Shown: positions 17,489 to 57,713 of the stretch, in pieces | Layout: every line of letters starts with the position of its first letter | Position numbering within the stretch: position 1 is the stretch's first letter | NCBI RefSeq assembly: GCF_019923745.1 | Contig: NZ_JAANOG010000003.1 | Span: 62,001 to 126,000, forward strand | DNA length: 64,000 nt | Direction: 5' to 3' | Source of the DNA: Aquirufa aurantiipilula | Lineage (GTDB): Bacteria; Bacteroidota; Bacteroidia; Cytophagales; Spirosomataceae | Notes under the pieces: generated by a model | Databases searched by the model: none | The model's input: only the letters and a program-made list of their open reading frames with translations | What the model was told of the DNA's origin: nothing | Made by a program: the position numbers and the translations under genes

Positions 17489-20400
17489 CTATTTTGCTAA
17501 CCGATTGATGTACACAAATGTGCTGATGTTGGGATACTTTCCGAAAAAATCCACATAATAGTAATACGTACCATCGGGCAATTTTCCATCACTTGTCATC
17601 AAACCAATAGTTTTATCGCTTAAGCCACCCCAATTATTTTGATAATTATTGGTTTCATAAACCACTTCACCCCATCGGTTCACAATAACAAATCGATTCG
17701 GTTGCCTACGAAAGATACCGGGTATCACGAGTACATCATTGATTCCATCTTGGTTGGGAGAAATAGCTTGTGGGGCAAAAATTTCACAAATATCCGCATC
17801 TATACGATTGTCTATTCCATCCTTGTCACAATCAGTCATTCCTCCAAAATTGATATCATTTTCAAGGGTATCAAGCATGCCATCATTATCATCATCGCTA
17901 TCCCGGTAATCTAGGGTCATATCCAAATCTGTATCCAAGGGTCGTAGCGGATTAGGCCCTGCTTCCTCTGTATCGCTTAATCCATTGTTATCAGAATCCA
18001 CATCTCGGTAATCAGCTAGTTCGTCTTCATCTGAATCTATCGGTACTTGAACATTCGGACCAACTTCTATTGTATCGGGTATACCATCATTATCCGAATC
18101 TACATCTCGGAAATCCACTTTCCCATCTAAGTCAGTATCCAAAGGGTGAATTACATCTGGACCTACTTCTATCTCGTCAGGAATTGTATCATTATCCGAA
18201 TCACGATCCAAATAATCCGGTTGGGTATCATCATCCGTATCAATGGGTTTCAAAGGAATTGACCCCACTTCCACTGAATCGGGAATCGTATCATTATCTG
18301 AATCTTCATCTCGATAATTTGGCCATCCATCTTGATCTGTATCAACGGGAATTAAAGGTTCATTTCCTGCCTCTACAGCATCGGAAATCGTGTCATTATC
18401 CGAATCCAAATCTCTAAAATCTCCCAAACCATCTTTATCCGAATCCAAAGGCTTCGATGGATTTGATCCAGCCTCCACAATATCGCTAATACCATCATTA
18501 TCAGAATCTTTATCTCGATAATCAGGCAATCCATCTGCATCACTATCCACGGGCTTTGTTAGGTCTAGCCCAGCTTCTAATCCATCCAACATGCCATCCA
18601 TGTCGGAATCTATATCTCGAAAATCAGCCTGGCCATCCTCATCCGTATCCCATGGATTATTGACATCTGGTCCCGCCTCCATCTCATCCCCTATTCCGTC
18701 ATTGTCAGCATCTACATCACGATAGTCGGGTCTCCCATCTAAATCTGTGTCAAATACATGTTGAAAATTCCCCGCCTCTATTGCATCTGGAATATGGTCA
18801 TTATCTGAATCTATATCTCGAAAATCGGCCTGACCGTCTGAATCAGAATCTAGGGGTTTAATCGGATTTAAACCCGCTTCTAAAGCATCCAAAATGCCAT
18901 CATTATCGGAATCCAAATCCACATAATCCGGCTTTCCATCTAAATCAGAATCTATTGGCTCTGCCGAAGGTATTCCCGATTCTACAAAATCAGGTATTGA
19001 ATCATTGTCAGAATCTACATCTTGATAATCTGCTTTACCATCTCCATCCGAATCAATTGGTTTGTCAGGATTTGAACCTGCCTCCACAGAATCAGGTATT
19101 CCATCATCATCTGCATCCAAATCCAAGTAATCTGGTTTCCCATCTAAATCTGTATCAAGAGGGTTATTCGGATTCGAGCCAATTTCTATTGCATCTGGAA
19201 TTAGATCATTATCCGAATCATAGTCCTCAAAATCGTGCAAACCATCTCCATCACTATCTCTTGGTTGTTGGCAATCTCCAGCCTCTTGACTATCCAGCAT
19301 CCCATCGTTATCAGAATCCAAATCCCTAAAATTCGCAATTCCATCCCCATCTCCATCAGCTCCCCATTCCTTGCTATCTGGAATGCAATCATTGTCTGAA
19401 TCCAAATCCAAAAAATCAGAGCTACCATCTGAATCGGTATCAATAACTTTTACATATTGACCTCGATCATCCCAACCATCATCCAAATCATCCTTCCTTT
19501 GTGAACAAGAAGCACATTTATTTTTTCCCTCCCAAGCATCTGGGATACCATCTTGATCTGAATCCAAATCCAAGTAATTAGGTACTCCATCCAAATCATT
19601 GTCCACATTCCTTTCATCTTGATCTCCAAGCCAATCCCCATCAGAATCCAAGTCGCGGTAATTGGGAAATCCTTCTCCATCTTCATCCTTTGTTCCTTCT
19701 ATCGCATCTGATATTTCATCATTGTCAGCATCTAAATCTACATAATCTGGCTTCCCATCATGATCTGTATCTGGAATAGGAGCTGGACTACCGCCCAAAC
19801 CTATTTCTAGAAAATCAGCCAACCCATTGCCATTCGTATCTAGCAAAAAGCCTTTCTTATCCACTCGACCATCATAATTATCGTCCAGATTTCCTCTTGC
19901 AATATTACTGGCTTCCCAAACATCCATAATACCATCATTGTCTGAATCCAAATCTAGGTAATTGGGTATACCATCCCCATCTGTGTCAACTTCCCCTTCG
20001 GTTGAATCCAATATGCCATCATTATCTGAATCTAGGTCGAGATAATTAGCGTGTCGGTCACCATCTGTATCTCGATTTTTCTCTCGTTCATCTGGTATTC
20101 CATCCCCATCAGAATCCATATCCATGGAATTCACTAATCCATCACTATCAAAATCTTGGCAGTTACCTTGAAGAGTAAAGGTTTGATAACATTCCATAGA
20201 ATTGGGAATACCATCACTATCAAAATCTGCCATTAGAATTTCCATCAAATTACTAGTAATTTTTATTCCTGAGCTATGCGAAAAAGTAAAGAAACCTCTT
20301 CCTTCCTGACCTAAATACATCATCCCCAATTGGCTCAAATCTGCCATTCCATGAACAAAATCACTGGATTTGTTTAATTGATTCCCGCCAGAAAGACCAG

Positions 20401-23400
20401 CAATATAGCCTGGCAAGGTACTGGATACCTGTATGGGATTTAAACTTGCATCAAAATCAAGGAGGATATTGCCATATGCGTCCAAAGTACTCAATGTATT
20501 CAGGCCTGCAAAAGGAGTTTCAGTGGTTTGAGGACTAGTCATTTGTAAATGAAACTTGGCCAAAGGGCCAGCTTTTACTGAGACCGGCAAATAATTGGAA
20601 GTGAGTGTATCTTCCAATAATTGAACTTGAATTTGAGCCAAAGTAGCATGAAACAACTTCATCGACACTTGGGCAATTCCACCTACAAAATCGATACTCG
20701 TGGTAGATCCAAAATTTCTAATTTGCGATTCCCGATCTATCGCCTGAGGAAAAACTACCGGATTAGTCGAATTCTTGGCCCCACTAAATAAGACTGTCTT
20801 AGTCCCGGAATAGGTATCTACCAAGTCTCCGACTTCATTCATGACCTTTATCGTAATTATATTTTCAATTCCTGCTATTTGGGTTGAATCCCCCGAAATT
20901 TGAAGCTGAGTTGGTTTAATTAAATCCGATTGAATGTGGATTTCACTCTGGATACTCAATCCGGTGCTAGGGCTAAATGTCAACATATCCTGACCAACTA
21001 GCCCAGAATAAATCATTCCAAGCTGTGTCAAATTGGCGACACCTTGACTAAAGTCGCTTGAACTAACCAGTCGAAAACCACCAGATAATCCGGAGATTGT
21101 TCCACCCTGACTAGTACTGATTGCAATTGGGTTTAATGCTGCATTAAATGTGCTTACGGGATTTCCATACTCATCTTGAGCTATCAACAAATTAGTTCCA
21201 TAAAATGGCTTTTGATTGACTTGTGGATTTTGCAATCGAACACTTAATTTTTGAAATGATTTCTCTGAAACACGAATGGCTAATTTGTCCAAACCTGTCG
21301 TATTGATAAAACCTTCCGTGGCACTGAGGGAATCGATACCTGATTTATATACAATGATTTGAACTTGTGCCTCTCCATTAGTAAAATTGACGGGGGTATT
21401 AATTCCAAAATCAATGCCATTGGCTTGGGATTTGAAGTTAGTGGCCAAAGAAGAATTTGTGCCTGAAAACTGAAGTATTTTAGTGCCCGTATATGTGCTA
21501 ATAAGTATTCCTCTACGATTCGCAGCAACTATTCTGATGGTTTGACTTGATCCTGCTATCTGATTGGAACTTCCGCTAATGATGAATTTAGAAGCTTGAT
21601 TTATATCTATTATTTTTATTTGGGCTCTAGCACAAACACCTGTCAGGGAATTACAAACTTCATATACTATGGACACGGAATCTTCTTCCCATGCAGTAGC
21701 AGTATAAGTCATTAATCCCGTCATGGAATTAAAATTGACCATGCCTTTTTCTGTTCCTGAAACCCGACGTAAACTGGTACTAGGTCCAGGTAAAAAATCA
21801 TCGTTTTTCAATACTTGAAGGCTAATTGGTCCCTGACTAAAAGCCTGCTGAATTACATCATTTTGTGCAACAGGAACCTTGGGATTGGGATCTGATGCAT
21901 TTACATTTCCGTCATCATCATAATCATCATCACAAGCATCTCCCATACCATCCTTATCTGTATCTAGTTGATTTGGATTATAGCTTGAAGGGCAATTATC
22001 TTCAAAGTCAACCACCCCATCTCCATCTGTATCAGTTTCATCTCGGAAAATCAAATTGGAAAAATAGGATTTTTGTTGATTTCCCACTGATTCAAGACCG
22101 ATGGTCACCACACTTAAATTTGCTTCTGGTTTTAATAGTTTTTTAGCATAGATGAACTGGTTTAAAGTAAAATAATTTGAGGTATTATTTTGACCTATAT
22201 CATACCCTAATCGCAAAGACCCTGATCCATAAAATGTACCTCCTGTCGCAATATCTGCGTAATTATTCACCACATTTGCCTGAAAATTAGGACCTATTCT
22301 CCTTACAACACTGCTCAAACGCATGGTCCTATCTTTTGCAATTCGGAAAGATTTACGCAAGAGACCGTGGTCAAACAATGTTGGACTTACATTTTCAATA
22401 ACCACGTTCCCCGATTCCTGATAAATTTTAGTAGATCTATTAGCCAAATAGTAAGCGTACCAATCATCGGAATAATCAAACAAATTAATGTTATGTCGTT
22501 TTTTCAATTGAATGGTATACGAGTCAAGCACCTGATGATTGGCATCTTGCATTTCAATGGTCAAGTCAACCTCTTGTTGATTTCCGAGAATACTGTAAGG
22601 GATTTCATTATTACCGTGCTGACTGGAGGAAATCACTTTATTCCCCTTTTTTATTACATACCAATTTTGATTGCTCAAATAATTTATACTGCGAATATTG
22701 ATGCGTACTGTATGAAATGGGGAGATAAACCAAAGTAAATTTTCATAGCGAATCAATTTATCTGGATGTGGAGAAAATGAACTAATGGCCGCTTCAGTAG
22801 CTGGATTTAAGTTAAACTTTGCGACATACTTAAAAAATGGAACCAGGTTCGTCTGGGTACAATTAGCTGTCGCTTGGGCGATATTACTTAATGCATCTTC
22901 TATGGTATTGACTTTTGGCATCTTCCGTAATTCTTGAAAAAATTTAGGAAAAATGGTGGATTTCCCAAAGGTGCTAATCAATCCTTCCAAGAGCCCTACT
23001 GGCTTCCATGCTGGTTCATCGTCGGTATTCGTCCCCGTACCTCGGTTATAATCATTATAGCCTATTCGGTCCCATTTGGCCCAAACATTATAAGGATTCG
23101 CGTCCAAATCATTGATATACCCAATAAAATTTTCTTTAAACCAAGAGATATTCAATAAGCTCTCATTAAACTTCCTTTGCTGGGGATCTGTCAATAAATC
23201 ATTGAAGGCATAAGCGGTAAATAAACTCGCAAATGCCTCGGCCATTCCGCCATTTTTTTCTTGACTATTGGGGTTATAGGGAAAAAGAACTTTGGAGCTA
23301 AAATCAAAGAAATTTCGACCAAACTCATAGGCTAAAATAACATCTCTATTGACATTGGTATTGTTTTTAAGGTTAAAATAGATATTGTCAAATCCACTCA

Positions 23401-26400
23401 CTTCGATACCTTTGGCTCCTACCAAACCACAACCCGATCCACAAGATGGAATACCAAAAAACACACTTGTTTTATAGCCAAAATCCGGGTTTCCTCCAGG
23501 AGGTTCATAGCCCAATGAATTTTTATAAAAATCATATAAGGCATCTGTTCTTTCCACCAATTTTGCCAGCGTAGCTGCATCGGTTAATTGATCATTACTA
23601 ATGATTGATTTGTCTATCCTTAATACGGTATTTCTTCCTTGAATGGACCAAACAGGAATTTGTCGACGATCAAATGAAAAATACAAATCATCCGTCAAGC
23701 CATATTGAAGACCAGAAGGACTTGTCACGTTGCCCAAAACAACTTTTACGACAAGATTGTCCCCAGCTAAGTGGCTATTCAAAACACCGTCACTTACTTG
23801 AATGACATCTTCATTGCTGACCGTTTTAAGAATTAATTCCAAGGTGGCTGAACCCTCAAAAAATTCCACAGCAGTAGATTGGCCGAATGGAATACCCAAA
23901 GCTGTAGCTGTATTTTGAAAGTTACTAGGATTGGCGGATTCTGAAAATACCAAATTTTTAATTCCTGAATAGGTGCGAACCAAAACACCGTTCGCATCTT
24001 TTGCCTCCAATTTGATATATTGACTTTTCCCTGAAAACTGAATGGATGAGCCCGTTATGACTAAGCGTTCCTCTTTATCTGATATCACAATTCCACTCGA
24101 CTGAGTACTGATCAAACTTGATTCATTCGAAAGGGAAAAGACGAAATTGGAAGAAAATACCTCCAATGAATTTACTTCAGAAGAGAAAGTGGTTTTTTTG
24201 GATAATAAAGTTTTACGGTTTAAGGTGGCAACAGCTGGTTGAAATATGAAACCTAATGCTGTAAGATTAGCCACTCCATTTTTAAAATCTGATACTTGAT
24301 TTAATACATTATTTTGGGCACTGCCAAGACCCAGCACTTGACCCATGCCTGAACTTACCTGAATACTAATAGGTTGTAAACTGGCATTAAAATCAAGACA
24401 AATATTACCAAAGGCATCTTTTACCGTTAGCGTATTATTCCCAACAAAGGGCTTTCCTCGCGTTTGAGGGCTACTGATATTGGCCACTAATTGCTTGGGG
24501 CTATTGGCCTTGACTTGAATCAAAAAATCATTTCCTGACATGGCCCCCGAAACACTTGTCTCTCGTACTGAAATCGAAGCGGTTTCTGCTAAATATAAAT
24601 AAACCGGGACCTGAGCTTTTCCATTAATGAAGGATATAGAAATAGCTTTCCCAAATGGTGATTCTATAGCTGTGCTATTATTTTGAACTTTAGCTTGATA
24701 GCTTGTATTGGGAATATTTCTTGCTCCTGTGAAAACTAGCACTTTATTTCCATGGTAGGTAAAATCCGTTTCACCTAACGAAGTCAAAGCACTTATAGTC
24801 AAAGTTTGTGACTCCCCTGCCAATTGAGTCGAGTTAGCTGAGATATACAACTTAGTCGACTGATTGGAATTGACAAATTGAATGGAATGACTCGTAGTTT
24901 CAATTCCATTTTGTGCCACAAATCTAAATGAAGTACCAGTAGCTCCTTGATAAAAAAAGCCCTTTTCTGTCAAATCAAGTTCCCCTCGAACAAAATCTGA
25001 AGTTCGATTTAAGGTATAAGTATTCCCAAGACTTTTAAATCCCCATGCTCCCGTATTTTGAGCTTGTACATGAATTGGGTTTTGCTGAGCATCAAAATCG
25101 ATGCACACATTTCCATATTCATCCATTGCTTTTAGCGAATTAATCCCTTGAAAAACTTGTCCATTTACCTGTGGACTTGTTAAACTAATATCAAAATGAT
25201 GAAAACTTGAGGCCTTCACATTCACGGATAAATGATTTTCAACCCGACTTACAGCTCCTAAAAACTCAGAGACTCCCAAAGACACATTTTCTGCCTGATA
25301 CAATATCACCTGAGTGCTTGCAATCCCATTCTTAAATTGAATGGAGGTAAGAGTACCAAAATTGGTAGGTACGGATAAACTATTTAATGCTGTAGGTGCT
25401 TTGTCAACAGAGGCTGCCACTGAAGCTCCATGAAAAAGTAATTCCTTTACTCCATTAAAATTAGTGAGTGTATTATTTGAAGAGTCTAACAACTTGAGCG
25501 TTATGGTTTGAGGCACTCCGGCTATTTGATTGCTTGCCCCTTCTACTTGTATTCGATTATAATATGAGGCTCCAGGATAAAAAACTATGTTTTCGGCTTT
25601 TTCCGTGTAGCCCGATTTTAAAGAAAAAATCAAATCGGCTTCCCCAATTTTTCCCGTGTAAATCATTTTCAAAACACTCAAGTCGGCCTTACCATTGATT
25701 AAGTCCGAACTCTGATTGATGATATTATTCTTTTCTGAACCCAAACCATGAATGATTCCACCCAAACTATTACTGACAGTAATGGGATTTTGGGAAGCAT
25801 CAAAATGACTAACCTCATTGCCATAGCTATCCGTTATTTGAATAGTACCAGAAATAGGCTCCCCTACTTTCTGGGTTTCCGCTATTTTAAGTTTTAGTTC
25901 ATTACCCGACAATGGCAGGACTTCTATTTCCAATTTCTCCTCTTCATTGGATGAAAATTGATCATCTTTCATTGAAATCAATGCCTTTTCAGCTTTGAAT
26001 AAAGAAATACCTACATTAGCCACTCCTTGATTGAAGTTAATACTTACTTTACTTCCAAAAGGCACGCCATTGATATTTGGTTGAATCCCTTGTTTCAAGG
26101 AGGAATTAGCACCAAAGAACAATACATTTTTTATCCCCGTAAAGGACTTATCTAAATTACCATAGCGGTCTTGGATAAAGATGCTTAAGGGCATTTGAGA
26201 GCCAACCACTTGTTTAGGATTGATCGATTTTAATAAAAAAGAATGCTCTTGACCTACATCAAATCCTACAGTATCACTTGTATTGTATTTACTATTGCTA
26301 AATTGAAAGATGACTTTACCCGCTTTCCCTGTATATTTCATCCCCAAAGTAGCCAAATCAACAATGCCGGCCTGTGCATCACTCGCTTGATTGATGAGGT

Positions 26401-27100
26401 TATTTTTTGCAGAGCCCAATCCGCTTATTACCCCTCCAGTAGAAGTCGTTACTTTTATCGGATCTTGGGATGGATCAAAATCCGACAAGTTATTTCCATA
26501 GTTATCAGTCATGGCCAATATCCCCTGAATGGTTGACAATCGCGATTGCTGACTAAGTAAATCGGCCCAAAGGCGAATGTTTTTATTGGGTTTTACTTGA
26601 ACCAGTAATTTTTCATTTTCAAGACTTGACAATTCCTCCCCCTTAACTGATATGGCCGCCAATTCTTGTTTAAAAAGCTGGAGGCCAAAGGCGAATAATC
26701 CCTTAGTAAAATTCACTTGTAGTTTATCCCCAAATTTCACTCCATTTACTTTAGGAATTTGACCTAATCTAGCCACGTTTGCCCCTGAAAAAACCAGTGA
26801 TTTGGGCCCTTCATAAGAGGTTATAGTATTCCCTTGCGAGTCAACAGCCCTTACCACCATAGTTTTAACTTCTCCAGCCAAAAATTCGGTGGAGCTTGAA
26901 ATGGTAATTTTATATTTAACCGCCGGACCCGCCATTGGATTTGACAAGCTTACATCCGAATGGGCAAAAACAATGGGACTACCCCATAAAAGAATGGAGA
27001 AAATAATACCTTTAAGAAGGTATGAAACCAAGGATTTAATGAATAAATCAATGGTGGAATTACACTTTCTTTGAATCATGATGTACATGGGAAAAATCAT
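17489..27100 (-). CDS. Giant modular surface protein with T9SS type B sorting domain
   Basis: A 3203-residue exported protein; the actual start may be an ATG a few codons later (MIQRK...), before the hydrophobic segment ending FSILLWGSPIVFAHS. Approximate layout: modules at 61-283, 284-510, 511-744, 745-1008 and a half module from 1009, each opening with a sheet motif like GSSxQIAGxxQTI and SGTKxLxFSGA and continuing with a DxYGNxxxxFDAxxNPI half. Then come a peptidase-like region (about 1141-1440) with YEFGR at 1258-1262, a laminin-G-like stretch, a short TSP3 cluster (about 1685-1737), a cadherin-like segment, and two more modules (1835-2288). About 24 thrombospondin type 3 units (2289-3085) follow. 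The C terminus (about 3102-3203, FAPQAISPNQDGINDVL ... IVNRWGEVVYETNNY) is the gliding-motility-associated/T9SS type B domain. It is probably an adhesin or surface-layer protein; function unknown. Confidence 0.92.
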   Translation of the reverse strand: MIFPMYIMIQRKCNSTIDLFIKSLVSYLLKGIIFSILLWGSPIVFAHSDVSLSNPMAGPAVKYKITISSSTEFLAGEVKTMVVRAVDSQGNTITSYEGPKSLVFSGANVARLGQIPKVNGVKFGDKLQVNFTKGLFAFGLQLFKQELAAISVKGEELSSLENEKLLVQVKPNKNIRLWADLLSQQSRLSTIQGILAMTDNYGNNLSDFDPSQDPIKVTTSTGGVISGLGSAKNNLINQASDAQAGIVDLATLGMKYTGKAGKVIFQFSNSKYNTSDTVGFDVGQEHSFLLKSINPKQVVGSQMPLSIFIQDRYGNLDKSFTGIKNVLFFGANSSLKQGIQPNINGVPFGSKVSINFNQGVANVGISLFKAEKALISMKDDQFSSNEEEKLEIEVLPLSGNELKLKIAETQKVGEPISGTIQITDSYGNEVSHFDASQNPITVSNSLGGIIHGLGSEKNNIINQSSDLINGKADLSVLKMIYTGKIGEADLIFSLKSGYTEKAENIVFYPGASYYNRIQVEGASNQIAGVPQTITLKLLDSSNNTLTNFNGVKELLFHGASVAASVDKAPTALNSLSVPTNFGTLTSIQFKNGIASTQVILYQAENVSLGVSEFLGAVSRVENHLSVNVKASSFHHFDISLTSPQVNGQVFQGINSLKAMDEYGNVCIDFDAQQNPIHVQAQNTGAWGFKSLGNTYTLNRTSDFVRGELDLTEKGFFYQGATGTSFRFVAQNGIETTSHSIQFVNSNQSTKLYISANSTQLAGESQTLTISALTSLGETDFTYHGNKVLVFTGARNIPNTSYQAKVQNNSTAIESPFGKAISISFINGKAQVPVYLYLAETASISVRETSVSGAMSGNDFLIQVKANSPKQLVANISSPQTRGKPFVGNNTLTVKDAFGNICLDFNASLQPISIQVSSGMGQVLGLGSAQNNVLNQVSDFKNGVANLTALGFIFQPAVATLNRKTLLSKKTTFSSEVNSLEVFSSNFVFSLSNESSLISTQSSGIVISDKEERLVITGSSIQFSGKSQYIKLEAKDANGVLVRTYSGIKNLVFSESANPSNFQNTATALGIPFGQSTAVEFFEGSATLELILKTVSNEDVIQVSDGVLNSHLAGDNLVVKVVLGNVTSPSGLQYGLTDDLYFSFDRRQIPVWSIQGRNTVLRIDKSIISNDQLTDAATLAKLVERTDALYDFYKNSLGYEPPGGNPDFGYKTSVFFGIPSCGSGCGLVGAKGIEVSGFDNIYFNLKNNTNVNRDVILAYEFGRNFFDFSSKVLFPYNPNSQEKNGGMAEAFASLFTAYAFNDLLTDPQQRKFNESLLNISWFKENFIGYINDLDANPYNVWAKWDRIGYNDYNRGTGTNTDDEPAWKPVGLLEGLISTFGKSTIFPKFFQELRKMPKVNTIEDALSNIAQATANCTQTNLVPFFKYVAKFNLNPATEAAISSFSPHPDKLIRYENLLWFISPFHTVRINIRSINYLSNQNWYVIKKGNKVISSSQHGNNEIPYSILGNQQEVDLTIEMQDANHQVLDSYTIQLKKRHNINLFDYSDDWYAYYLANRSTKIYQESGNVVIENVSPTLFDHGLLRKSFRIAKDRTMRLSSVVRRIGPNFQANVVNNYADIATGGTFYGSGSLRLGYDIGQNNTSNYFTLNQFIYAKKLLKPEANLSVVTIGLESVGNQQKSYFSNLIFRDETDTDGDGVVDFEDNCPSSYNPNQLDTDKDGMGDACDDDYDDDGNVNASDPNPKVPVAQNDVIQQAFSQGPISLQVLKNDDFLPGPSTSLRRVSGTEKGMVNFNSMTGLMTYTATAWEEDSVSIVYEVCNSLTGVCARAQIKIIDINQASKFIISGSSNQIAGSSQTIRIVAANRRGILISTYTGTKILQFSGTNSSLATNFKSQANGIDFGINTPVNFTNGEAQVQIIVYKSGIDSLSATEGFINTTGLDKLAIRVSEKSFQKLSVRLQNPQVNQKPFYGTNLLIAQDEYGNPVSTFNAALNPIAISTSQGGTISGLSGGFRLVSSSDFSQGVANLTQLGMIYSGLVGQDMLTFSPSTGLSIQSEIHIQSDLIKPTQLQISGDSTQIAGIENIITIKVMNEVGDLVDTYSGTKTVLFSGAKNSTNPVVFPQAIDRESQIRNFGSTTSIDFVGGIAQVSMKLFHATLAQIQVQLLEDTLTSNYLPVSVKAGPLAKFHLQMTSPQTTETPFAGLNTLSTLDAYGNILLDFDASLNPIQVSSTLPGYIAGLSGGNQLNKSSDFVHGMADLSQLGMMYLGQEGRGFFTFSHSSGIKITSNLMEILMADFDSDGIPNSMECYQTFTLQGNCQDFDSDGLVNSMDMDSDGDGIPDEREKNRDTDGDRHANYLDLDSDNDGILDSTEGEVDTDGDGIPNYLDLDSDNDGIMDVWEASNIARGNLDDNYDGRVDKKGFLLDTNGNGLADFLEIGLGGSPAPIPDTDHDGKPDYVDLDADNDEISDAIEGTKDEDGEGFPNYRDLDSDGDWLGDQDERNVDNDLDGVPNYLDLDSDQDGIPDAWEGKNKCASCSQRKDDLDDGWDDRGQYVKVIDTDSDGSSDFLDLDSDNDCIPDSKEWGADGDGDGIANFRDLDSDNDGMLDSQEAGDCQQPRDSDGDGLHDFEDYDSDNDLIPDAIEIGSNPNNPLDTDLDGKPDYLDLDADDDGIPDSVEAGSNPDKPIDSDGDGKADYQDVDSDNDSIPDFVESGIPSAEPIDSDLDGKPDYVDLDSDNDGILDALEAGLNPIKPLDSDSDGQADFRDIDSDNDHIPDAIEAGNFQHVFDTDLDGRPDYRDVDADNDGIGDEMEAGPDVNNPWDTDEDGQADFRDIDSDMDGMLDGLEAGLDLTKPVDSDADGLPDYRDKDSDNDGISDIVEAGSNPSKPLDSDKDGLGDFRDLDSDNDTISDAVEAGNEPLIPVDTDQDGWPNYRDEDSDNDTIPDSVEVGSIPLKPIDTDDDTQPDYLDRDSDNDTIPDEIEVGPDVIHPLDTDLDGKVDFRDVDSDNDGIPDTIEVGPNVQVPIDSDEDELADYRDVDSDNNGLSDTEEAGPNPLRPLDTDLDMTLDYRDSDDDNDGMLDTLENDINFGGMTDCDKDGIDNRIDADICEIFAPQAISPNQDGINDVLVIPGIFRRQPNRFVIVNRWGEVVYETNNYQNNWGGLSDKTIGLMTSDGKLPDGTYYYYVDFFGKYPNISTFVYINRLAK
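17840..20236 (-). repeat. Thrombospondin type 3 (calcium-binding) repeat array within the giant gene
   Basis: About 24 in-frame units each holding one or two DxDxDG loops. The 14 units nearest the C terminus (about 17840-19260) form a very regular 33-34 residue period of the form DSDxDGxxDYxDxDSDNDGIPDxxEAG plus a short Pro-containing linker. The repeats are protein-level; the DNA copies have diverged at many synonymous sites. Such arrays bind calcium and form stiff stalks. Confidence 0.9.
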
Positions 27101-27549: not shown

Positions 27550-27580
27550 TTTGCATAAAAACATTTTTTTTATACCTTTG
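27550..27580 (+). promoter_or_regulatory. Promoter of the tyr leader-aminotransferase-tyrA unit
   Basis: A full Bacteroidota promoter: the -33 box TTTG at 27550-27553, 19 nt of spacing, and a perfect -7 box TACCTTTG at 27573-27580. The expected transcription start is a few bases downstream, at or just before the leader ATGs at 27585 and 27591. Confidence 0.8.
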
Positions 27581-27590
27581 GCACATGATT

Positions 27591-27650
27591 ATGCATTCAA
27601 CTACTTATTATCGCGCTTATTATTACGCAGGATTCACATCCTGCCAATAG
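27591..27650 (+). CDS. Tyrosine-rich leader peptide (attenuation)
   Basis: A 19-codon ORF, MHSTTYYRAYYYAGFTSCQ, ending with TAG at 27648-27650. An in-frame ATG at 27585 would add two residues, but lies very close to the expected transcription start. Five Tyr codons occur as YY (27606-27611) and YYY (27618-27626), plus one Phe, far above chance for a random frame. It lies between a perfect promoter and an intrinsic terminator directly in front of an aromatic-type aminotransferase and tyrA. This is the arrangement of ribosome-stalling leader peptides of amino-acid operons, here sensing Tyr-tRNA. Confidence 0.8.
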   Translation: MHSTTYYRAYYYAGFTSCQ

Positions 27651-27711
27651 GCTATTGTAGGTATAGATTTAATTTAAACTTATTATGAGCCGGCCCCAAG
27701 TCGGTTTTTTT
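27627..27711 (+). promoter_or_regulatory. Tyrosine attenuator: alternative hairpins and terminator
   Basis: A perfect 7-bp hairpin (GCAGGAT 27627-27633, loop TCAC, ATCCTGC 27638-27644) starts right after the YYY codons. A competing hairpin pairs CCTGC and AAT (27640-27648, one bulged C) with ATT and GTAGG (27654-27661). The terminator stem is AGCCGGC (27688-27694), loop CCCAA, GTCGGTT (27700-27706, two G-U pairs), with a T run to 27711. GGCTAT at 27650-27655 can pair with AT-AGCC at 27685-27691 (bulged G) as a weak antiterminator. A ribosome at the leader stop would cover this element and permit termination; one stalled on the Tyr codons would leave it free. The pairings are seen; the mechanism is inferred. 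Confidence 0.7.
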
Positions 27712-27716
27712 GTTTT

Positions 27717-28892
27717 ATGAGCTTCACCATTTCGCCAGCTTCTCGGTTACAAGTCGTACAAGAATACTACTTTTCTACCAAGCTAAAACAGATTGCAGCC
27801 TTGAAAGCCTCGGGTATTCCGGTGCTAAATCTTGGTATAGGTAGTCCGGACCTAGCACCTTCTGATGCCACCATTCAGGCATTGATAACTAGTGCCCAGA
27901 AAAAAGAAAACCATGCCTATCAAGGTTACCAAGGCATTCCGGCATTGCGTGAAGCTTTTGCTCAATTTTACCAAAAACAATACCAAGTAGACCTTAACCC
28001 GAATTCGGAAATATTGCCTTTGATGGGTTCCAAAGAAGGCATCATGCATATTGCAATGGCCTATTTGGAAAAAGGAGATATCACCTTAATCCCCAATCCA
28101 GGTTACCCAACTTACCAGGCTGCTTGTGCCTTAACAGGTGCTGAAGTACAAAGTTATGAGTTATCGGAAGCCAATGGCTGGTTGCCTGATTTGGATGCAT
28201 TAGCCAAGCGTGATTTATCCCAAGTGAAAATCATGTGGGTAAATTATCCGCATATGCCAACTGGTGCGAAGGCCGATAAAGCTTTTTTTGAAAAACTACG
28301 TGATTTTGCCTTGACCCATTCTATTTTACTGGTCAATGACAATCCCTACAGTTTCATCTTAAATGATGAGCCTATTAGTATGTTAAGTATTCCCGGGATG
28401 AAAGAAGTGGCTTTGGAATTGAATTCTCTTTCTAAATCCCATAATATGGCTGGATGGAGAATTGGTGCTGTAATGGGAAAACAAGAATTCTTAGCTCCCA
28501 TCCTAACTTTTAAATCCAACATGGATTCGGGTATGTTTTTACCTCTGCAAGAAGCCGCAACAGAAGCATTAAAAGCAGATGCTTCGTGGTTTAAACAACA
28601 AAATGAGATTTATTCTGCTCGTCAGAAGGTCGTATTTCAGTTAATGGATTTGTTGAATTGTAGCTATGACCCACAACAGAGTGGCATGTTTGTTTGGGCT
28701 AAAATACCTTCTGAATATGCCAATGGGTATGAGCTTTCCGATAAAATTCTTACTGAAAACGCCGTTTTTATTACCCCCGGAGGCATATTTGGTAGTCAAG
28801 GCAATCACTACATACGCATATCCTTATGTGCTCCCATTTCACTTTTTGAAACCGCCATTAACCGCATAAAAACTCAGTCAAATGGAATTTAA
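27717..28892 (+). CDS. PLP-dependent class I/II aminotransferase, likely for aromatic amino acid synthesis
   Basis: A 391-residue fold-type I aminotransferase. It has VLNLGIGSPDLAPSD near the N terminus, the substrate and PLP-binding NYPHMPTG (NYPNNPTG in most relatives), the Schiff-base Lys K240 in NSLSKSHNMAGWRIG with R248, and a C-terminal YIRISLC with the substrate-binding Arg. The ATG lies 5 nt after the T run of the attenuator, and the 3' end overlaps tyrA by 11 nt. The context points to transamination in tyrosine/phenylalanine synthesis; a broader role such as LL-diaminopimelate or aspartate aminotransferase cannot be excluded. Confidence 0.9.
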   Translation: MSFTISPASRLQVVQEYYFSTKLKQIAALKASGIPVLNLGIGSPDLAPSDATIQALITSAQKKENHAYQGYQGIPALREAFAQFYQKQYQVDLNPNSEILPLMGSKEGIMHIAMAYLEKGDITLIPNPGYPTYQAACALTGAEVQSYELSEANGWLPDLDALAKRDLSQVKIMWVNYPHMPTGAKADKAFFEKLRDFALTHSILLVNDNPYSFILNDEPISMLSIPGMKEVALELNSLSKSHNMAGWRIGAVMGKQEFLAPILTFKSNMDSGMFLPLQEAATEALKADASWFKQQNEIYSARQKVVFQLMDLLNCSYDPQQSGMFVWAKIPSEYANGYELSDKILTENAVFITPGGIFGSQGNHYIRISLCAPISLFETAINRIKTQSNGI

Positions 28893-29745
28893 TAAAGTTG
28901 TAGGTATTTTGGGTATAGGGTTAATTGGAGGTTCCATGGCGCTAGGTTTACGTAAAAGCGGATGGGCCAAAGAATGTATCGGTATTGATACCCATCGTCC
29001 AAACCAAAAAAGAGCTTTGGAATTGGGATTGATCGATCGACTACTACCTTTGGAAGAAGCATTGCAGGTGATTGATGTGCTGATTATTGCTACTCCAGTA
29101 GATAATTTGGTGGAACAACTACCCAAAATTTTGGATCAATTCAATGAAAAGCAAATCGTGATTGAAGTGGGATCAACCAAAAGTCCCATTTACGAAGCGC
29201 TAAAAAACCATCCCAGAAGAAAGCAATTTGTCTCTACCCATCCCATGGCTGGTACTGAATTTTCTGGCCCAGAAGCTGCGATAGACGGACTCTTCGAAGG
29301 AAAACGTTGCGTCATTTGTGATCAGGAATTAAGTGATCCCGATGCGGAAAAAACGATAGAAAGTTTATATCAAGATGGTTTGCACATGAATCTAATTTAT
29401 ATGGATTCCATCAGCCATGATGTCCACACCGCCTACATTTCCCACATTTCTCATATCTGTTCTTTTGCTTTAGCCAATACTGTTTTGGAAAAAGAAAAAG
29501 ATGAAAAACGCATTTTCGAATTAGCTTCAACGGGATTTGAATCCACGGTACGTTTAGCGAAATCATCGCCAGAAACTTGGATTCAAATTTTTCATCAAAA
29601 TCAAGAAAACTTGATGGATGTATTGGATGAATATATCAATACGCTGCTGAAATACAAAGGACTGATGTTGTCTGGAAGTTATGAAAAGCTGAAGGAAGAA
29701 TTAGCCAAAGCCAATGATATCGGAAGGATTCTAAACCGAAAATAA
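28882..29745 (+). CDS. tyrA: Prephenate dehydrogenase
   Basis: A 287-residue NAD-dependent dehydrogenase converting prephenate to 4-hydroxyphenylpyruvate. It has the N-terminal VGILGIGLIGGSMALGL (GxGxxG), IIATPVDNL, VEVGSTKSPI, the substrate motif STHPMAGTEFSGP, and HDVHTAYISHISHICSFALA. It has neither a chorismate mutase nor an ACT domain, so feedback control by an ACT module is absent and leader-peptide attenuation may be the main control. It overlaps the aminotransferase gene by 11 nt. Confidence 0.95.
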   Translation: MEFNKVVGILGIGLIGGSMALGLRKSGWAKECIGIDTHRPNQKRALELGLIDRLLPLEEALQVIDVLIIATPVDNLVEQLPKILDQFNEKQIVIEVGSTKSPIYEALKNHPRRKQFVSTHPMAGTEFSGPEAAIDGLFEGKRCVICDQELSDPDAEKTIESLYQDGLHMNLIYMDSISHDVHTAYISHISHICSFALANTVLEKEKDEKRIFELASTGFESTVRLAKSSPETWIQIFHQNQENLMDVLDEYINTLLKYKGLMLSGSYEKLKEELAKANDIGRILNRK

Positions 29746-56381: not shown

Positions 56382-57476
56382 TTAAGAAGCGAAAGAAATA
56401 TGTCTAATTTCCAATTCTTTGAAAAAATCGGCCATGGGATTAACTTCCAAACGAAGTAGCTTTTGCCATAGGCGAATTGCTTTGGTCATCAAACCACTTT
56501 CAATTAAAAAACCATCGTGACCGTATAGGGAATCGATTACTTGAAAAGATGCCCCGGGAATATGTTTGGCTAAATATTCTTGTTCTACTATAGGAAACAA
56601 AGCATCCGATTTGATCCCTATCACAAGAGTTTTGGCTTTAACTGATTTCAAAGCTTTCATTACCCCACCACGATTTCTACCCACATCTTGTGAGTCCATC
56701 ATTTTCGACAAAATATAATAGGAATAAGCATTAAACCTTCCGGCCAATTTTTCTCCTTGGTAACGTTGATAGGATATCGCCCGCAAGGATTCTCCTGTGG
56801 TATTTTCTTGTCGAGCCTGCGTAATTTGATAAGTTTCGTAATTACGGTAGGAAATTAATGCGGTTGCACGCGCAGCCTTCATTCCTTCAATTCCTGCTCT
56901 AGGTTGAGACTCCTTCCAAGTAGGATCTACTTCAATGGACATCCTTTGAGATTCATTGAATGCGATACCCCATGGCGAGTGAACGGCATTAGTAGCTATT
57001 AAGATAAGATTTTCAATTAAATCAGGTTGGATGATGGCCCATTCCAAGGCCTGTTGACCACCCAATGAGCCACCTATACAAGTCTTGATGCGGTCTATAC
57101 CCAAATCTTTTCTGAGCAATTCAAAACTATTGACTACATCTCTGATAGTGACAGTTGGAAAGGTATGGTAATAAGGCTCTCCAGTCAATGGATTGGTAGA
57201 AAGTGGACCTGTAGAACCATAGTGGGAACCGAGGATATTACAACAGACAATAAAATGGGTTTCTGGATTAAACAATTTACCTGAACCTACGAGTCCTTGC
57301 CACCAATCTGATACTTCATGGCTGCCTGTGAAGGCATGACAGATCCAAACGACATTATCTTTTTGGGCATTTAGTTTACCCATGGTTTCATAAGCCAATT
57401 GAATGGAAGGAAGAACGCCACCCATTTCCAGGGCAAAAGAAGAGGAAGAATGAAAATGATTAAACTCAGCTTGCAT
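56382..57476 (-). CDS. metX: Homoserine O-acetyltransferase
   Basis: A 364-residue alpha/beta hydrolase-fold acyltransferase that acetylates (or succinylates) homoserine for methionine synthesis. It has CHAFTGSHEV, NILGSHYGSTGP, nucleophile S137 in CIGGSLGGQQALEW, Asp in GIKSDALFPIVEQ and His in YGHDGFL. A SAM-I riboswitch ends 11 nt before the ATG, which fits the pathway. An SDR gene follows 2 nt after the stop. Confidence 0.95.
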   Translation of the reverse strand: MQAEFNHFHSSSSFALEMGGVLPSIQLAYETMGKLNAQKDNVVWICHAFTGSHEVSDWWQGLVGSGKLFNPETHFIVCCNILGSHYGSTGPLSTNPLTGEPYYHTFPTVTIRDVVNSFELLRKDLGIDRIKTCIGGSLGGQQALEWAIIQPDLIENLILIATNAVHSPWGIAFNESQRMSIEVDPTWKESQPRAGIEGMKAARATALISYRNYETYQITQARQENTTGESLRAISYQRYQGEKLAGRFNAYSYYILSKMMDSQDVGRNRGGVMKALKSVKAKTLVIGIKSDALFPIVEQEYLAKHIPGASFQVIDSLYGHDGFLIESGLMTKAIRLWQKLLRLEVNPMADFFKELEIRHISFAS

Positions 57477-57487
57477 GTAACAATTCG

Positions 57488-57596
57488 TTTATATTTCCCT
57501 AAACAGGCATTTGCCTGGGGTAGGAATTAGCACCTTAGTTTTTCAACTGGTTGCCAGAAGTTCATTGAGCCTAGTCTCTCCCTTCTTCTTTATAAA
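57488..57596 (-). ncRNA. SAM-I (S-box) riboswitch upstream of metX
   Basis: Read on the minus strand, the element has P1 arms TTTATA (57596-57591) and TATAAA (57493-57488), the k-turn-side GGGAGAGACTAGGC, the core GGCAACC, P3 AGTT/GAAA/AACT, the conserved AAGGTGCTAATTCC, P4 CAGGC/AAAT/GCCTG, and the closing GGGAAATATAAA. These are the invariant blocks of the SAM-I class. P1 ends 11 nt before the metX ATG and there is no terminator between, so control is probably at translation initiation. Confidence 0.9.
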
Positions 57597-57713
57597 TCAA
57601 TGCTGCTTGTGCGATTGACTTGGGACTGCAAAGTAAAGGATGAAATGGAAGAATTCCAAAAATTTCAACGGATTGGATAGGTTGGGAAAGGTACGTGCAG
57701 GTTGGGTTAGGTT

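Follow-up and report, generated by a model that had tools for sequence, protein, structure and literature searches.

A predicted tyrosine-specific leader-peptide attenuator upstream of an aminotransferase-tyrA operon in Aquirufa aurantiipilula and its relatives

How is an operon for tyrosine synthesis controlled when a short tyrosine-rich ORF and a terminator lie between its promoter and its first gene? Repressors and T-boxes are the best-known regulators of tyrosine operons. In the window, the 64,000-nt stretch of Aquirufa aurantiipilula DNA analyzed here, the genes in question are aat, a class I/II aminotransferase gene (27717–28892, + strand; PF00155), and tyrA, encoding prephenate dehydrogenase (28882–29745, + strand; PRK08507.1 above its cut-off, PF02153 and PF20463), whose start overlaps the end of aat by 11 nt. 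The downstream genes therefore make tyrosine, the presumed substrate of the aminotransferase being taken from context, with no NCBIfam cut-off reached. TyrA matched PDH_N and PDH_C and gave no ACT match, in keeping with an earlier note on this DNA that had described it as lacking an ACT domain. That note had also read the upstream element as a Tyr leader-peptide attenuator. From comparison of sequences, we consider it highly probable that the element is a ribosome-mediated transcription attenuator specific for tyrosine; conservation of the Tyr codons and covariation of antiterminator and terminator support this reading.

The promoter read from the sequence (27550–27580, + strand) consists of a −33 TTTG at 27550–27553, 19 nt and a −7 box, TACCTTTG, at 27573–27580, letter for letter as previously described. 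In Flavobacterium psychrophilum the sigma-A consensus TAnnTTTG is placed at −12 to −5 (PMC9723704). The −7 box, counted apart from the −33 part, is kept in all 35 genus upstream regions and also in a further genome (G059/L185). The leader ORF (27585–27650, + strand) has 21 codons followed by TAG and encodes MIMHSTTYYRAYYYAGFTSCQ, its start codon being the predicted mRNA 5′ end. An ORF of 19 codons had been proposed, starting at the second ATG; this ATG is not conserved and is absent even from a near relative (L009), while the first ATG, at 27585, is conserved. The regulatory Tyr codons (27606–27626, + strand) form YY at 27606–27611 and YYY at 27618–27626, as had been noted, so that a run of cognate codons within a short ORF, the mark of an attenuator, is present. 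A window-wide scan for short ORFs that combine an amino-acid run with a terminator gave one match besides the Tyr leader; this candidate (minus strand, 63762–63718) was rejected since it sits within a longer rodA/ftsW-like frame, named by eye.

The leader ATG lies 4 nt past the −7 box in all 36 genus genomes; of the 25 other genomes from the family, 17 have a gap of 4–5 nt. The gap is 18–20 nt in six Siphonobacter-type genomes and 24 nt in L207, and L208 has no box nearby. With the box at −12 to −5, a 4-nt gap places +1 on the A of the AUG, and the leader mRNA thus probably starts at the AUG. Leaderless transcripts are reported to make up 5.5% of 890 mRNAs in F. psychrophilum (PMC9723704), and trpL of Sinorhizobium meliloti is described as a leaderless attenuator RNA (PMC7298713), which provides a precedent.

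A Tyr leader was found upstream of all 61 close aat orthologues, 36 from Aquirufa and 25 from other Spirosomataceae. Of the 37 genus genomes in the first search, 35, among them the window's own, gave an aat match; the two without a match (G023 and G027) are both incomplete. All 35 have a leader of 20–21 codons with 5–7 Tyr, and a further genus genome (G059) has a Tyr leader too. The family search gave an aat match in 168 of 200 genomes: 34 from the genus, 25 others at ≥63% identity and 109 at lower identity. All upstream regions of the 25 were fetched and every one contains a Tyr leader, for example MQNANNTYPNYYYYYGQ, MATILYTASYYYYYANA and MNQTINTYRAYYYYYALPV; loci L035–L041 and L042–L050 repeat genus and family contigs and were not recounted. 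No Tyr leader was seen beside distant aat genes (∼50% identity) in the 14 fetched out of 109, the 4-Tyr frames in L212 and L213 being judged chance as they have no Tyr run. A short ORF with at least four Tyr codons occurs in 61/61 close upstream regions versus 84 of 5900 dinucleotide shuffles.

The 25 distinct leaders from the genus all have Tyr at positions 8, 13 and 14, and 23 have it at position 12; the other two lack one codon (gap placed by hand), and this loss of one whole codon is the sole length change. The codons at positions 8, 13 and 14 are identical in all 25, and consequently constraint on the peptide and on the RNA are not separable there within the genus. TAT/TAC switches are found at positions 9, 10, 17 and 18, where the amino acid varies as well, and across the family the Tyr run alternates between TAT and TAC. 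The earlier note had stated that its reading would fall if Tyr codons or stems were not conserved in close relatives; both the Tyr codons and the stems described below are conserved.

Three hairpins can be drawn in the window's leader. The 1:2 hairpin (27615–27652, + strand) pairs 27615–27621 with 27646–27652 (GCTTATT with AATAGGC) and 27627–27633 with 27638–27644 (GCAGGAT/ATCCTGC). The inner helix, beginning at 27627, is the 7-bp hairpin reported earlier right after the last Tyr codon; the hairpin as a whole is longer, with the outer helix added. It takes in Tyr codons and the stop codon, overlaps the first bases of the antiterminator, and differs in form from subclade to subclade. The antiterminator hairpin (27650–27691, + strand) has two parts, GGCT at 27650–27653 with AGCC at 27688–27691 and GTAGGT at 27657–27662 with ACTTAT at 27678–27683, and an energy of about −11.6 kcal/mol. 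It therefore exceeds the approximately 6 bp first credited to it, while the portion competing with the terminator is only 4 bp in the window. The intrinsic terminator (27687–27711, + strand) is an 8-bp stem with G–U pairs and a 5-nt loop, GAGCCGGC-CCCAA-GTCGGTTT at 27687–27707, with a T run to 27711; direct reading bears out the placement of the T run 5 nt ahead of the aminotransferase ATG at 27717.

We examined these alternative pairings in 38 distinct Spirosomataceae sequences. In all 38, the terminator's left arm pairs with the 20 nt from the stop codon onward, the energy of this pairing being −8.1 to −18.4 kcal/mol; terminator energies range from −8.3 to −16.4 kcal/mol. Presence of a T run was a condition of the terminator search and cannot count as independent evidence. 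Of 22 hand-chosen representatives, 16 had an antiterminator arm that paired better than 95% of its shuffles; the remaining six were unconvincing. When partners were swapped between sequences, in some cases between near relatives, native pairs were the stronger in 339 of 462 comparisons and swaps won 123. Pairs were counted sequence by sequence because the alignment displaces the terminator of one subclade; the counts were anchored on GG:CC, with L205 anchored in another register. Two-sided changes are seen, across genera, at five of the nine positions tabulated for the outer helix of the antiterminator: C–G/U–A at −2 in several lineages and also at +2, G–C/A–U at −3 (L201 only), C–G/A–U at −1 (L207 only) and U–A/A–U at +3 (L184 only). 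Three of the five double changes thus rest on one lineage each, and non-pairing cells, of 33–37 per position, number 13 at +2, 7 at +3, 6 at −3 and 3 at −1. With these exceptions, antiterminator and terminator are mutually exclusive and conserved with compensatory change.

The position of the arms relative to the leader ORF is also conserved. The distance between the stop codon's first base and the GG core of the antiterminator arm is 2–11 nt in 37 of 38 sequences, the exception being L188. A ribosome on a stop codon is reported to cover up to 12 nt past it (PMC4833913), and consequently a ribosome finishing the leader would mask the antiterminator arm. In L188 (G157) a change in the terminator left arm, GCCCACTC, mismatches terminator and antiterminator alike; it may be a sequencing error in a draft genome.

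Folding with a ribosome placed at the stop codon gave the terminator in all 38 sequences. Without a ribosome the terminator formed in 35, and L020, L023 and L198 formed the antiterminator instead. With a ribosome on the Tyr run, the terminator left the minimum-energy fold in 20 sequences (in 16 at both stall positions tried) and was retained in 18, the window's own sequence among them. Equilibrium folding was therefore set aside as proof of the switch, having worked for about half of the sequences only, and in the 18 antitermination would have to be kinetic or partial. The earlier note had called the antiterminator the weak point, a fair description for the window's subclade, where the terminator stays in the stalled-ribosome fold. 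In E. coli trp the terminator is likewise more stable than the antiterminator, so a retained terminator does not refute the mechanism.

We propose that RNA polymerase would start at or beside the leader AUG and that a ribosome would load on the near-leaderless 5′ end. When Tyr-tRNA is plentiful, the ribosome would get to the stop codon and cover the 5′ arm of the antiterminator just behind it; the terminator would then form and transcription would end ahead of aat. When Tyr-tRNA is scarce, the ribosome would stall on YY/YYY and cover the left arm of the 1:2 hairpin, freeing the antiterminator 5′ arm to capture the left arm of the terminator, and aat-tyrA would be transcribed. If no ribosome loads, the antiterminator arm would be held in the 1:2 hairpin and the terminator would form. 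The mechanism assumes coupling of transcription and translation in Bacteroidota.

The same parts could act on translation, the hairpin near the aat start blocking ribosome loading until stalling in the leader opens it. The hairpin does end merely 9–12 nt ahead of the ATG in the genus and in L184; however, it lies 22–106 nt upstream in 20 of 21 other distinct family sequences (no distance was obtained for L208), with the antiterminator pairing kept, and we regard translational control as improbable. Still less credible is direct sensing of tyrosine by a T-box (tRNA-binding) or metabolite-binding RNA with the ORF incidental. Its output logic would be identical, yet no Rfam family reached its gathering score in the leader stretch, the T-box covariance model gave no match at the aat leader in either the gathering or the relaxed search, and the relaxed search yielded only a chance-level tsr26 (17.6 bits against a gathering score of 141). 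Such an RNA would also not account for a Tyr-rich short frame in 61/61 upstream regions, a genus length change of a whole codon and TAT/TAC switches across the family. A constitutive partial terminator, or an element yielding a small RNA or peptide that works at other sites, would need no tyrosine response. The attenuated leaderless trpL RNA of S. meliloti and its peptide are described as acting in trans (PMC7298713), but this explanation is very unlikely as it leaves the conserved Tyr codons, the covarying antiterminator and the match between codons and genes unexplained.

Ribosome-mediated attenuation therefore remains our preferred reading, and its anatomy can be compared with known systems. 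Leader-peptide attenuators of the trp/his/phe type, with E. coli trp as the model, combine a run of cognate codons with a set of 1:2, antiterminator and terminator hairpins. The aat leader shares the codon run, the hairpin set and a stop codon placed where the finishing ribosome would mask the antiterminator arm; it differs in its predicted tyrosine signal, its probable leaderless start and its Bacteroidota promoter. The S. meliloti trpLE(G) attenuator is described as having a leader RNA that begins at the ATG of the leader ORF, and differs in using Trp and in belonging to Alphaproteobacteria (PMC7298713). Leader-peptide attenuation proposed for F. psychrophilum (PMC9723704) concerns the same phylum and mechanism, in a main text without any word beginning 'tyrosine'. 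Bacteroid-trp (RF01692, Bacteroidete tryptophan peptide leader RNA) is an element of this kind from Bacteroidota, with Trp rather than Tyr as its amino acid, and Rfam searches gave no match to it at the aat leader.

The genus itself provides an internal control for attenuator anatomy. In Aquirufa, a Trp leader containing WW or GW (as in MTKATYNKNWWQG) stands ahead of trpE, and GAACAG, CTGTTC and a terminator come after it. Such a leader, together with a dedicated antiterminator and terminator, was found by script in 27 of 30 fetched trpE loci and by eye in L170 and L180; the script match at L167 was a coding frame, and seven of 37 trpE matches lay outside the fetched set. Trp leaders of the MTKATYNKNWWQG type are seen among loci L154–L183, with the L162 element at 1297–1412. 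Against RF01692 the L162 leader scored 25.7 bits, a weak match below the gathering score of 49.

At other Bacteroidota loci, aat is often directly preceded by an ORF of a length that fits prephenate dehydratase, with Pfam PDT matched in 3 of 3 checked. Among 59 loci chosen by similarity to the window aminotransferase, an aromatic leader with a terminator precedes this pheA-size ORF in 47, versus 1 of 59 on the opposite strand. The scan covered L051–L114 except L052 (the L208 contig, counted with the family), L053, L103 and L109 (little upstream DNA), and L114 (no pheA upstream; read by hand, its leader missed by the script). Counts from the script are lower bounds, since it takes the first ATG and an upstream ATG dilutes the aromatic share. 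At least two leader candidates, Phe/Tyr and some with Trp, were seen in 16 of the 59. Chitinophaga L064 and Hymenobacter L066 have tandem leaders, each with its own terminator, ∼1000–1300 nt upstream of aat.

A second sample consisted of genomes at least 90% complete from a phylum-wide PDT search, which gave a match in 128 of 148; 39 of the 128 were scanned. Irrespective of aat, a mixed Phe/Tyr leader and terminator precede pheA in 25 of 32 genomes from Cytophagales and other Bacteroidia (two with two leaders), compared with 1 of 32 on the opposite strand, and in none of the seven from other classes. With both sets pooled, 75 of 90 leaders have an antiterminator arm that outperforms 95% of shuffles, and in 63 it outperforms 99%. 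A −7 box lies within 6 nt of only 2 of 111 aromatic ORF candidates at pheA loci (terminator not required) and within 60 nt of 45, which suggests that the leaderless start is a trait of the Tyr leader.

The codons differ as well. Leaders of the 59-locus set contain 338 Phe, 228 Tyr and 20 Trp codons, versus 20 Phe (7 past residue 6), 230 Tyr and no Trp in the 38 distinct Spirosomataceae leader peptides. In Spirosomataceae pheA is located away from aat-tyrA, and none of 37 pheA loci scanned (17 Aquirufa and 20 family) has an aromatic leader; in the Aquirufa scan eight of L127–L151 were skipped as too short and the partial L152 and L153 were left out. A Lentimicrobium MAG (L114), too, has a Tyr-only leader; it precedes aat, tyrA and an ORF judged by eye to resemble DAHP synthase, and no pheA lies upstream. 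In a Saprospiraceae MAG (L109) whose genes are ordered as in L114, the frame ahead of aat (36–92) starts with GTG and mixes Phe and Tyr codons. Leader codons thus largely follow gene content, with L109 the one exception seen, and gene content does not fully predict them.

We incline, by a modest margin, to the view that this is the first Tyr-specific leader-peptide attenuator, leaderless, and re-tuned from a class-wide Phe/Tyr attenuator of pheA-aat-tyrA when pheA left the operon. Among the open PMC papers listed, no title or abstract opening described a tyrosine-specific attenuator. The earlier note had held a Tyr version in Bacteroidota to be worth describing; the Tyr specificity is new as far as searched, and leader-peptide attenuation in the phylum had already been indicated by RF01692 and by PMC9723704, which reports 'strong clues' of it ahead of amino-acid operons. 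What appears new in the Tyr leader is the amino acid that it would sense, and its probable leaderless start is unusual; the principle is not new. The Phe/Tyr leader set may already be partly noted in the literature. Leader-like sORFs are reported in B. thetaiotaomicron (PMC7366714), Bacteroid-trp is among the table entries of PMC2864571, and the comparative survey of Lopatovskaya and others (2010) could cover such leaders. The main text of PMC2965389 contains none of Bacteroid, tyrosine, tyrA, Cytophag or Flavobacter.

If true, re-tuning would amount to a natural experiment on a regulatory peptide whose codons track the pathway under its control. A tyrosine-only attenuator in Bacteroidota, where Shine-Dalgarno signals are not relied on, would show that ribosome-mediated attenuation can operate with leaderless initiation in this phylum, and it would imply that transcription and translation are tightly coupled. 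The single and tandem Phe/Tyr leaders of Bacteroidia offer natural variants for asking how codon choice sets sensitivity.

Elsewhere in the window, a SAM riboswitch (RF00162, 73 bits; 57486–57598, − strand) lies just upstream of a metX-like ORF (56382–57476, − strand; gene name by eye). Divergent from the leader operon is an ORF of 3203 aa (17489–27100, − strand) with many Asp-rich DxDxDG-like repeats.
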